A stretch of 64,000 nucleotides of DNA, from positions 25,830 to 89,829 of the forward strand of contig AZLU01000175.1 in NCBI GenBank assembly GCA_002224055.1, in the 5' to 3' direction. Below, in pieces: positions 53,802-58,959 of this stretch. This DNA is from Pezizomycotina sp. ARF18 (taxonomy: Eukaryota > Ascomycota). How positions within the stretch are numbered: the first letter of the stretch is position 1; every line of letters begins with the position of its first letter. Below the pieces are notes generated by a model, which was given only the letters and a program-made list of their open reading frames with translations, had not been told where the DNA came from and made no database searches. A program made the position numbers and the translations under genes.

Positions 53802-55334
53802 GGGATAAATTTTTTTTCGTTCTTGTTAAGCGGGAAATTATAAACGTGCAGGTGCCACCACCGCCCACCCAAACCGAAGGAAAAAAAAAAGGAAAAACTG
53901 TTAGGAAACTGCGGAAAAGGAACAGCCGAAGCAGTTTGACCACTAAATCCGGCTTACAAGAAGATCGTGAAGAATAGATATTGAGAATAGGGGAGGAGTT
54001 TTGGCGAGGATGAATGGATTCAGTTCTTATTGCTGAAGGAAAGCACGCCAGTCGCAGATTGATTTGTTATTGATTTATTTACTATTTGTTATTATTATTG
54101 TTATTTTCTTTTTCTCTTCTTTCTTTTCTCTCTTTGTCCTCCTTCTATTATGGCAATTTAAGTATTTATTTTAATTTATTTTTTCAAATTTTTTTTTTTC
54201 CTTCCTAAAGTATATTATTTCTTTTTCTGCGCAGAAGAACTCCACTATTATTTCTTTTTTGTTTTGCTTTTTTGTATATATCAAAAGCTGCGACTGCTTA
54301 GTCATCAACCGAATTGTCGCAGCCACTGTGGCTGGGAGATATTGTGGCTAGTGGCACGTGATACTTCCGGAAAGGCGGTTGCGACATTCTCTTTTTTCTT
54401 CACACGACACAAAAATTTTTGGGCGGCTGACAGGGCAAGGGCAAGAACACACAGAGAATTAAATCTTCTTCGGGCAAGAAAGGACGGATAGGATAGGTCG
54501 CAAGAAGCAAGAAGGAGGCATAACGAATCAGTTGAAGCCTTTGATTGGAGCTATTACTACTCTACTCTATTGTCTAACCGAGAGAGTTCGGCTTTTTTTA
54601 GAGAGCTGCTTAGTGCATGAACTGGAATGTTGCTGATTACCGTAGAGGAGAGCGATTTCGGAGACTGAGCTACTAGGTAGGTAGACGCTAAAAATATAAT
54701 AATACTATACTTTAAGTATACCCAAGAATAAGCAGGGAATTTTTTTTTTTTTTTTTTATTTCGCTCACATCTGATTTGGTGAAACCCTCTTCAGTTACGC
54801 AGCTGTGGCATCTAAACTTTTTTTTTTTTTTTTGAAAAAAAAAATAATTTCTATGCAATAACCAAAAGAAAAAAAAAGAAAAAAAAAAAAAAATTTTTTT
54901 TTCCCAACCCACCGTTGAAAAAAATTTTTTTTTTTTTCCTTTTCTTACCTTTTTCTTTCCCCTCTCCCTTCCCTTCCACGACATCATTCTTCTCAATTCT
55001 TACACCTTTCTTAACATTCCTATTTATTATCCTCTTTTTCTTATATCTGTTCCAATTTCGAATCCTCCATCGTCAAAGCAACCTCTTCTTTTGCAGGATC
55101 TTTGTTCTTCGCTTGCATCAAGGAACCCCTTCCAGAAGCATTTCCATTGTTCGCCGTGGTCATCTGATCAGATATCTCTTTTTCTTCAACCTCTTTAATA
55201 AAACCCTCGTTACAGAACAAAGAGGTTCATTGTGTCTTTTCTCAACCCTTCAATCTTCCAATCATCAATTTTTCCATTCTAGCTACTATTCGTAGCAAGA
55301 CAACCTAGGGTGTCCTGCTACCGGAACCGCTTTT
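53582..55334. other. Divergent promoter region and CPA1 5' leader
   Basis: This lies between the Acinus-like gene (-) and the CPA1 leader (+). It contains A30 near 53769-53799 and mixed T/A runs at 54739-54935. There is an inverted pair GCTGCGAC (54287-54294) and GTCGCAGC (54316-54323), with an E-box CACGTG at 54355-54360. From about 54936 the plus strand is C/T-rich, typical of a fungal promoter or leader ahead of CPA1. Confidence 0.5.
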
Positions 55335-55797
55335 ATGAGGTTTGCACCTCAGTCTTTACTTCTCAGGTAAGATCAAGATCTCTCTTCCTTTTTTTTTTTC
55401 TTCCGGCAGATAAAATGTAGTTCGTATTGTCGTATCATGCCATTGTACAGACGAGATCGGAGGGTTTCCACAATTTTTCGGAGCAAATCGAAGATAGAAA
55501 GTGGATGTGTAGCTTTTTTCCAACGTGTTTGAGGCTGTTTACCATTATCGTCCGGCATCTTTGTTTCATTGTTTGCTAACGATGCTCTACTATCGCAGGA
55601 TTATCTTTCCGGTACGATTAATCCTCCCTCACCTGTCCTCCATGGCGGACAATTCTTTCCTTTTAGTTGCATCGCTTTCAAGATGCATGCTACCGGCAAA
55701 CTTGTTGCTCCAAACAACTCGAATTAATTGAGTTGAATTGAAGTAGTACTAACACGATTATGCCTCAGATCACATCTGGAAAAACAGCTCAGCTTAA
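55335..55797 (+). promoter_or_regulatory. Arginine attenuator peptide uORF in the CPA1 leader, split over three exons
   Basis: In ascomycetes the CPA1/arg-2 mRNA carries a 24-25 codon uORF whose nascent peptide stalls ribosomes when arginine is high and lowers CPA1 translation. Here exon A (ATG 55335 to 55366) ends SVFTSQ. A 232-nt intron has donor CAG|GTAAGA, branch GCTAAC at 55575 and acceptor ATCGCAG. Exon B is 13 nt (55599-55611) and encodes DYLS. A 157-nt intron has donor GTACGA, branch TACTAAC at 55747-55753 and acceptor CCTCAG. Exon C (55769-55797) encodes the rest: DHIWKNSSA and TAA. The joined core, SVFTSQDYLSDHIWKNSSA, has the conserved Asp and Trp of the family at positions 12 and 19. 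The exons sum to 74 nt, one short of 25 codons, so one base is missing in exon A between ATG and TCA, as elsewhere in the window. With it the peptide is 24 residues, the Neurospora length. The stop is 165 nt before the CPA1 ATG. Confidence 0.9.
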
Positions 55798-55962
55798 TTG
55801 GCTGTCGCGGATATTTGGAATCAACTTGACTTGAAATTTTACGCTCTCTCTTTTTTCCGACTCTTCGGGATTGGCTTGAATATTATTTCACATAAGATAA
55901 TTACCATTCATTTTTCCAAGAAGAAAGTTTAAAAAAGAACACCCAAAAAAAGACAATTAAAA

Positions 55963-57442
55963 ATGCTTGCTGCCGTTTGTTGAAGCAATCCCCGAAGGCT
56001 GCCTTTGGCAAGCGCTTTCTGGCGACCGTCTCGAGCAATTATAGTACTAGCATAACGGGCGGAAGCTCGGGTCGTCAGATGCCGTTGAACCCTCGCGAGT
56101 CTACTCCGGTCTCACACGACAGGGCCACTTTCACTATCAGGGTACGTATATATGATGCTTCTAGAAAAATCCAGATTGTATCATATCTAACTGTTTTGAT
56201 TGGACAGGGTGGACCCACTTTTCACGGCAAGTCCTTCGGTGCGAAGGCGAACATCTCCGGTGAAGCCGTGTTCACCACCTCGCTCGTGGGCTACCCCGGT
56301 CTATGACCGATCCGTCCTACCGCGGACAGATCTGGTCTTCACCCAGCCGCTCATAGGCAACTACGGTGTCCCGTCCCGTGACCGTGACTCCGACGGCCTC
56401 CTCAAGTACTTTGAGAGCCTCACATCCAGACCGTAGGTATTGTTGTCGCCGACGCGCTCTCAAGTACTCTCACTGGACCGCCGTCGAATCCCTCGGCGAG
56501 TGGTGTGCTCGCGAGGGTGTTCCTGCCATCTCTGGCGTCGACACTCGTCAGATCGTGACTTTCCTCCGTGAGCGTGGTTCCTCGCTTGCCCGCATTACTA
56601 TCGGAGAAGAATATGACGCCGACCAGGATGAAGCCTTTATCGATCCCGAGCAGATCAATTTGGTAGCCAAAGTCTCCACCAAGGCCCCCTTCCACGTTTC
56701 TTCCCCGCACGGTGATTCTCACGTCGCCGTCATCGACTGCGGTGTCAAGGAGAACATCCTGCGCTCCCTCGTAGGCCGCGGATCTTCCGTCACCGTTTTC
56801 CCCTGGGACTACCCGATCCACAAGATCGCCAACCACTTCGACGGCGTCTTCATCTCCAACGGCCCCGGTGATCCGACGCACTGCACCCCCACCGTCTACC
56901 ACCTCCGCCGCCTGATGGAGTCCTACAAGGGTCCCATCATGGGTATCTGCCTGGGCCACCAGCTCCTCGCTCTGGCCGCGGGCGCCCGCACCGTCAAGCT
57001 CAAGTACGGTAACCGCGCGCATAACATCCCCGCGCTCGACCTGACCACTGGACGCTGCCACATCACCTCGCAGAACCACGGGTACGCCGTCGACGCGGAT
57101 ACCCTCCCGGCCGACTGGAAGCCGTTCTTCGTCAACCTCAACGACGGCTCGAACGAAGGGATGATTCACGTCTCCAAGCCGATCATGTCGACCCAGTTCC
57201 ACCCGGAAGCTAAGGGTGGCCCGCTCGACAGCAGCTTTCTGTTCGATGCTTACTTGGAGCAAGTCGCCAAGTTCCGCAATGGAGAGCTGGACGGTATTAA
57301 GAGGGAAGGCAGACCGAACCCGCTGCTCGTCGATCTCCTGAGCAAGGAGCGCGTCGGCGTTACGCTTACGGATAAAGAGAACGAGATGCAGGCTATGAAC
57401 GCCGTCGGTGGCATCGGGAGCGTTAGTGCTATGGCTGCTTAA
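55963..57442 (+). CDS. CPA1: Arginine-specific carbamoyl-phosphate synthase, small (glutaminase) subunit
   Basis: The subunit hydrolyses glutamine and feeds ammonia to the large subunit for carbamoyl phosphate in arginine synthesis; in filamentous ascomycetes it is mitochondrial. ATG 55963 opens MLAAV, then (one base lost) [20 protein letters not shown], a basic, hydroxylated presequence. A 66-nt intron (56142-56207) follows TFTIR. The small-subunit N-domain gives [51 protein letters not shown], and [15 protein letters not shown] with [19 protein letters not shown]. The class I amidotransferase domain has [12 protein letters not shown], the nucleophile Cys in [24 protein letters not shown], and the His/Glu pair in [16 protein letters not shown]. 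It ends at TAA 57440-57442. Four single-base losses lie within 56300-56460, each fixable by one base of a short C or G run; the 1-kb remainder is intact. The spliced attenuator uORF sits upstream. Confidence 0.95.
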
Positions 57443-58277
57443 AAATGTCGAGTTTTTAATACGTTTATTATTATGATTGATATATTCTCGAGATTGTTTT
57501 CTGGTACTCATGGTTTTTCTAAAGTTTAGTTCTGCTTTCGATAATGGTGTTTATCCGGTTGATTCCTCTGCTTTTCCCTCTTCATATCCCCCCCCCCCGT
57601 CCCTTCTTCTTTCTACAAGTTCGTTACAATTGCTAGTTTTAATCAGCATAAGGCTGCTTATGGGTTTTCGAAAGGTAACTTCAAATTGGCAGACGTAGTG
57701 GTAATGGTAGTGGTAGCTCATAAGATAGCTTTATCACAGATTCTTTAATAAACGAATAAATATCATTTATTCTTGCCTAATGAGTTCTCTGTAGTGTTTG
57801 ATCAAAATAAATGGGAAGTAAATTCAGCAAATGAGAAAAATGATAATTATTTGTAGTCAATAACCGTCGTGTTCTTTTCAAGAGAAAACTCGTCCTTGTT
57901 ATATCTATCAGCTACTTATTTCTTCTCGTTTCATTTCAGGAAAGGGAAATATTTATATTGTAAAATGTGAAGGATGAGCTATGCTCAAAAAAGCTAGATA
58001 CAAAAAAATAAAATAAAAAATAAAAATAAACAAAGATATATTCATAATCGTTAAAAACCATCTTTTGTGAATATAATTGAAAAAAGATCGAGCGAAAGGA
58101 TCCTAGGAAAAAAAGTCTATAGAATCATTTGATATAAGCCAAATATAACCATAAAAAAAAAAGGTGTAGAAACACCCCTTTCACAACCTATACCTTCTCC
58201 ATAACAAAAGCACCCTCCCCTTCTCTCCTCCGCACTGCCATTCCTACCTCTTCTCCACCCATCCCCATCGACATCCT
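57443..58277. other. Intergenic, convergent 3' region
   Basis: This AT-rich DNA lies between the ends of CPA1 (+) and the small gene at 58278 (-). It contains a C10 run near 57589-57598 and A-rich patches near 58000-58025. No gene is supported. Confidence 0.5.
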
Positions 58278-58959
58278 TCATATCCCATCCTCCACCGTAC
58301 CGTTATCATTATCCCGTAACGATCCCTTCCTTAATATCCCCTCCACCGCATCGCCGGCCCTCTCCACGACGTCGTCGGGCTGGTTCGCCATCTCCTCGTT
58401 CAGGCTGGCTAGTAACTCCGCGAAGCTCGACAATCCACCACCTCCACTGCCTCCTGATGCAGTAGTAGAAGAGGTAGTAGCACCCTTCTTTGTTGAGAGG
58501 AACGGGTTTTCGGTGGTGGTGGTGGTGGTGGTGGTGGTTGTGGCCGATGGGGAGGGTTTATGAGGGATGATATGGACATTGTTTTGCGGAACTACTTTCA
58601 TTGTTCGTACAGTTATTATTATTCGTAGTCGTAGAAGGTAGAGAGGAGGTAGACGTAGAGGTAGTAGTGTTCGAGACGTTAATCCGGTCCAGTTTCTGCT
58701 TTAAATCGCGAACCTGGTCCGCGAATTTCTCCTCGAGTAAAGCGCGGGCGCGCTGTTCTTCGGATTTGGACGTTAGGGATTCCGCGTCTCCTGTTGCTGT
58801 GGTAGGGGATTTCGAGGTGGGAACGGAGGTGTTTGAGGGGGATTTCGTAGATTTGGCGGGTTCGGAGTCGGAAGGGTTGACGATGGATGTTATGTCCATG
58901 GCGGAGGAGGTGGTGGTTGCGTCGCGCATGGGGACGTCGGCGTCGGTGTCGTCTGACAT
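58278..58959 (-). CDS. Small Ser/Thr-rich low-complexity protein with coiled segment, unknown function
   Basis: The start ATG 58959 gives MSDDTDADVPMRDATTTSSA, then a Ser/Thr/Lys-rich part (SKSPTTATGDAESLTSKSEE) and a charged helical stretch likely to coil (QRARALLEEKFADQVRDLKQ, KLDRINV). After Asn/Thr repeats the frame shifts near 58600 and continues VPQNNVHIIPHKPSPSATTT, a Thr-only run encoded by a trinucleotide repeat, then SSFAELLASLNEEMANQPDD, VVERAGDAVEGILRKGSLRD and a stop at 58278. The C-terminal amphipathic segment looks conserved in style, but I do not recognise a family. About 225 residues. It is convergent with CPA1. Confidence 0.6.
58512..58538. repeat. GGT trinucleotide repeat, nine units, in coding sequence
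   Basis: Nine GGT units on the plus strand correspond to ACC (Thr) codons of the minus-strand gene. Length variation would change a poly-threonine tract without shifting the frame. Confidence 0.85.

Follow-up and report, generated by a model that had tools for sequence, protein, structure and literature searches.

The leader of the CPA1 gene in Pezizomycotina sp. ARF18 raises the question of whether an arginine attenuator peptide (AAP) can be encoded across three exons, one of them a 13-nt microexon, and whether splicing of that leader could in turn decide how the gene responds to arginine. We analyzed the 64,000-nt stretch of DNA that contains the locus (hereafter the window), for which a first-pass annotation had proposed such an upstream open reading frame (uORF). 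Our analysis revealed that removal of positions 55367-55598 and 55612-55768 yields, in one frame from 55349, the peptide SVFTSQDYLSDHIWKNSSA followed by a stop codon. The spliced peptide is identical to the solved AAP of PDB entry 2xl1 (chain A) at 13 of 14 core positions (2xl1 residues 6-19, best splice path). A phmmer search returned 2xl1 (arginine attenuator peptide, 24 aa) as the top match, aligned over its residues 6-21 with an E value of 3.3e-6; the second match was a zinc-finger protein, with an E value of 0.025. Thus, the AAP core sequence, (T)SQDYLSDH-W, is present, and the family identity proposed for the peptide is borne out.

The uORF is on the plus strand. Its first exon (55335..55366) begins with an ATG that has T at position -3 and contains, one base out of register with that ATG, the codons for SVFTSQ from 55349 (TCA GTC TTT ACT TCT CAG), which are followed directly by the donor GTAAGA. 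Putative intron 1 (55367..55598, 232 nt) contains four ATGs, a CTAAC branch site at 55576-55580 and a CGCAG acceptor. The predicted microexon (55599..55611, 13 nt, GATTATCTTTCCG) carries the codons for Asp-Tyr-Leu-Ser (DYLS) and the first base of the next Asp codon; the first of these aspartates, carried here by the microexon, is the residue that we take to be equivalent to Asp13 of the yeast peptide. Putative intron 2 (55612..55768, 157 nt) has a GTACGA donor, four ATGs, CTAAC at 55749-55753 and a CTCAG acceptor, and the sequence that follows from 55769, ATCACATCTGGAAAAACAGCTCAGCTTAA, completes the Asp codon in exon 3 (55769..55797), which then encodes HIWKNSSA and ends with TAA at 55795-55797. 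The introns are located after Gln11, between codons, and within the Asp16 codon.

In both leader introns a GTANG donor is combined with a CTAAC branch site and a CAG acceptor, with 19 nt (intron 1) and 16 nt (intron 2) from the branch adenosine to the intron end. These signals resemble what is seen in the clearest introns of HSP70-family genes elsewhere in this genome, where donors such as GTACGT and GTAAGT are paired with CTAAC at 18 and 21 nt, respectively, from the end of the intron; the examples are GTACGTTC with CTAAC at 18, GTAAGTAG with CTAAC at 21, GTAAGCAC with CTAAC at 18 and GTACGTTT with CTAAC at 12. The survey that supplied these introns was weak: of 17 gaps, only 5 yielded a clear one, whose length fell within 4 nt of that expected (one each in loci L016, L070, L060 and L042, plus the second of two in L062); a relaxed survey gave mostly weaker candidates for the remaining gaps and none for L049. 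The distribution of ATGs is an independent sign that the leader introns are real. Between 54900 and 55962 there are nine ATGs, the one at 55335 and eight others, and all eight fall within the two introns, which account for 389 of these 1063 nt. The spliced leader from 54900 on would therefore have a single upstream AUG. The next ATG upstream of 54900 is at 54853.

Since the core is short and two splices are required to read it, it could in principle be a chance match in non-coding sequence. We searched both strands of the 64-kb window for splice paths with zero to two GT-AG introns of 40-400 nt against the 2xl1 core. Only two paths in the window reached at least 12 of 14 core residues, both starting from 55349: the better, with 13/14, is the three-exon layout that had been annotated, and the other, with 12/14, differs only in the last acceptor. 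At a threshold of at least 9/14 there were 22 paths, all on the plus strand, 18 of them from 55349; the four other starts in the window gave one path each, with 9/14 at most. Moreover, none of 300 first-order Markov resamples of 54900-56200 exceeded 8/14; 11 of them attained this score and the other 289 stayed below it. The core also lies directly upstream of a gene class known to carry AAPs. The window-wide search and the resampling effectively refute a chance match, to which we assign a negligible probability. The two predicted introns with their good donors, branch points and acceptors are upheld by both the splice signals and the path search, and the 13-nt middle exon carrying DYLS by the best path and its controls.

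The downstream gene is CPA1, encoding the carbamoyl-phosphate synthase (CPSase) small subunit (55963..57442, plus strand). Its ATG has A at -3, its product matches the domains PF00988 and PF00117 and contains a glutamine amidotransferase domain, and at least one short coding intron, at 56142-56207, can be read from the sequence. In the spliced form, the uORF stop codon is 165 nt upstream of the CPA1 ATG, and the uORF is thus located, as expected of an AAP, in the leader of an arginine-specific CPSase small-subunit gene. Elsewhere in the genome, PF00988 matched only on contig C188, where CPSase_L_D2 matches share their strand and an OTCace_N match lies 5.7-6.5 kb away; this gene looks like a pyrimidine multienzyme gene. 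A second arginine-type CPA1 copy was rejected because the other PF00988 matches adjoin CPSase_L_D2 and OTCace_N. A known type of structured RNA was likewise discarded as a candidate for the locus, as 54000-58500 gave no Rfam match at the gathering score.

The one component of the earlier description that does not stand as written is the start codon. The spliced core, the introns and the microexon were confirmed, but the start at 55335, taken as residue 1 and giving the numbering Asp12 to Ser15 for the microexon, is an ATG in another frame than the core: as assembled it reads MRFAPQSLLLR..., and the AUG-initiated spliced uORF is MRFAPQSLLLRIIFPITSGKTAQLNWLSRIFGINLT, followed by a stop, which is not an AAP. 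From this ATG to the Ser6 codon (TCA at 55349) there are 14 nt in the assembly, compared to the 15 nt needed by the family spacing (the Ser is residue 6 in 2xl1). Hence the ATG is within one base of the family position. Between 54900 and the first splice donor no other ATG occurs, and the frame of the core lacks one altogether from the stop at 55280 up to 55349. The first-pass annotation had overlooked both that the sole candidate start codon is out of frame and that losses of one base are frequent in this assembly.

The assembly comprises 46.4 Mb in 408 contigs and contains eukaryotic rRNA genes; just past the small-subunit rRNA match on contig C189, upstream of the 5.8S gene, is a group I intron (locus L007, positions 825-1104; Rfam RF00028, 70.8 bits). 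The style of the introns, the CPA1 leader and the rRNA together point to a filamentous ascomycete. Matches to the HSP70 and TCP-1 profiles contained 32 indel-like frame changes with no room for an intron, in ∼17.5 kb, a base count that is approximate because matches overlap (32 of 33 and 35 of 38 rows were used). Of these changes, 27 fit a shortage, including 19 that fit exactly one missing base, and 5 fit an excess. The broken HSP70 and TCP-1 loci (L012-L071) are on contigs C139, C99, C53, C54, C24, C20, C70, C49, C3, C208 and C303. CPA1 itself has a frame broken several times: the alignments of all four bacterial CarA-like queries are spread over three frames (56130-57259), the PF00988 match is split between frames, and the frame opened by the ATG at 55963 closes after six codons. 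The assembly is indel-prone, and this affects any frame-based claim from this genome. Because single bases are lost in conserved genes, the in-frame AUG and ∼24 codons expected of an AAP, which are here replaced by 14 rather than 15 nt to Ser6, are not a trustworthy test at this locus. The frequency of one-base losses in HSP70, TCP-1 and CPA1 sequence makes a sequencing or consensus error the likely, though unproved, source of the one-base gap in the uORF. We infer that the peptide starts at 55335; no base was restored to the sequence in this analysis. Membership in the AAP family is accordingly drawn from the core and its location and is provisional with respect to the start codon.

Two readings would take the frame data at face value. 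Translation of the core could begin at a codon other than AUG, or at an ATG carried by an exon further upstream, making the frame of 55335 irrelevant. Indeed, the core frame contains no stop from 55283 onward and includes a GTG at 55310, and there are more ATGs upstream, such as that at 54853. However, the sole ATG from 54900 to the core falls within one base of the exact place that the family spacing to Ser6 of 2xl1 assigns to the start, and we regard such a start as very unlikely. Alternatively, the breaks in the uORF and in CPA1 could be real, the locus being a pseudogene in a fungus that requires arginine. The out-of-frame ATG at 55335, the early stop after the CPA1 ATG at 55963 and the several frame changes in CPA1 would all fit this, as would a lost arginine pathway, for the carbamoyltransferase C-terminal domain, PF00185, had no match in the genome. 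The same search, though, failed to detect on C188 the C-terminal half that should accompany the OTCace_N match, and is thus insensitive here; the absence is probably a detection failure caused by frame errors and introns, and otherwise a missing ornithine carbamoyltransferase. Moreover, similar one-base losses break HSP70- and TCP-1-family genes on many contigs. At this locus the core and its splice sites are undamaged, the leader exons remain free of further ATGs, and ∼1 kb of the CPA1 frame downstream is unbroken. Argininosuccinate synthase is present in the genome, as are CPSase_L_D2 matches, although this domain occurs in other enzymes too. A dead locus is thus judged very unlikely, as improbable as a start elsewhere.

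The remaining possibility concerns the use of the splice sites, namely that arginine, nitrogen or growth state controls whether the microexon is included, which would set the share of CPA1 mRNA with a working sensor. At 13 nt, with consensus signals on both sides and predicted use of those sites, the exon is within the size of about 30 nt or less between splice sites by which a switch microexon is recognized. Translation of all forms in the core frame agreed with the earlier claim that skipping the exon or retaining an intron removes the arginine sensor. Full splicing gives the AAP core with a stop 165 nt before CPA1; skipping, which creates one 402-nt intron, gives SVFTSQITSGKTAQLNWLSRIFGINLT and a stop; retention of intron 1 gives SVFTSQVRSRSLFLFFFLPADKM and a stop; and retention of intron 2 gives SVFTSQDYLSGTINPP...NSN and a stop. 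Every alternative form still holds a uORF that ends upstream of CPA1. Because 13 is not a multiple of three, skipping of this very short exon always destroys the core. Skipping also keeps 55335 as the sole leader ATG and converts DYLSDHIW to ITSGKTAQ..., producing a clean arginine-blind uORF, and a glucose-dependent switch of a 20-nt microexon was reported for Xlr2 of Trichoderma virens (PMC11121469). Against such a switch, both introns have strong signals and inclusion may be constitutive. In addition, each retained intron adds four upstream AUGs, and retention would for that reason be expected to repress CPA1, the opposite of relief; only skipping would give an arginine-blind leader without extra upstream AUGs. 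A regulated microexon is thus unlikely, if less so than either a non-AUG or upstream start or a dead locus, and splicing of both introns, as predicted from their signals, is most likely constitutive.

Taken together, the data argue strongly that the locus is an ordinary CPA1 AAP uORF, presumably started at 55335 and probably spliced as a matter of routine through the 13-nt microexon, a reading that we hold with high confidence. In the AAP family, ribosomes reach the main frame by leaky scanning and stall at the uORF stop codon, and the D13N substitution in yeast abolishes arginine regulation (PMC7969011); AAPs have also been linked to nonsense-mediated decay of the mRNA (PMC11550727; PMC7049704). 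Here, both introns would be routinely removed from the CPA1 leader, and scanning ribosomes would meet one AUG in a weak context and translate a 24-codon uORF. At high arginine, the nascent AAP would stall the ribosome at the uORF stop codon, lowering CPA1 translation and exposing the mRNA to nonsense-mediated decay. At low arginine, leaky scanning past the uORF AUG would allow CPA1 to be made. The bases at -3, T for the uORF AUG and A for the CPA1 AUG, fit leaky scanning. The stalling, decay and leaky scanning steps are carried over from the family to this locus.

An AAP in this position, and the way in which it works, are already known. The gene layout, with two introns and a 13-nt exon predicted from splice signals, is unusual; we do not claim it as new, because a 2007 comparative study of the CPA1-type gene and its uORF in Fungal Genet Biol reportedly discussed uORF introns. 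The AAPs of Neurospora crassa arg-2 and Saccharomyces cerevisiae CPA1 share with the present peptide the core SVFTSQDYLSDH-W, the location in the leader of a CPSase small-subunit gene and a stop upstream of the main ATG. They differ from it in that the start is out of frame in the assembly here, and they may also differ in exon layout, the uORF here being predicted to have three exons with a 13-nt microexon. Relative to 2xl1, one core Leu is replaced by Ile, and the residues that follow the Trp are KN instead of RA. Among other systems, the Xlr2 microexon is alike in being a filamentous-fungus microexon with a functional determinant, but it encodes part of a transcription-factor DNA-binding domain and its glucose-dependent use was reported, whereas the microexon here is in a uORF and any regulated use is conjectured (PMC11121469). 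The authors of that study describe functional microexons as previously undescribed in filamentous fungi and fungal microexons as little characterized (PMC11121469). The conserved-peptide uORFs of Group 8 are also small conserved ORFs, interrupted twice by introns whose positions are conserved among many eukaryotes, but their peptide is of the CHCH type, with four cysteines, and is no arginine sensor (PMC2075485). In literature searches on AAPs, uORF introns and fungal microexons, no title among the matches listed dealt with an AAP uORF that contains introns or a microexon, and the core peptide strings had no literature match. A search of genome contigs for CPA1 DNA of other fungi gave at least 596 matching stretches, of which 594 were related, and the best 80 all had bacterial titles, and the uninterrupted AAP-core pattern had no match in viral contigs. 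One bacterial contig, from Parabacteroides sp. PH5-46 (locus L086, around 3001), has a 1360-aa stop-to-stop frame that holds a CarA-like match, a length that could accommodate fused small and large CPSase subunits.

The AAP is a textbook ribosome-arrest peptide, and the confinement of DYLS to a 13-nt exon suggests that its sensor can depend on accurate microexon splicing. An AAP split in this way would be missed by frame-based gene prediction. The layout also raises the question of whether CPA1 mRNA occurs in arginine-responsive and arginine-blind forms. If microexon inclusion were indeed regulated, a layer of RNA splicing would be placed atop a ribosome-arrest peptide, and the cell would be able to set the share of its CPA1 mRNA that responds to arginine.
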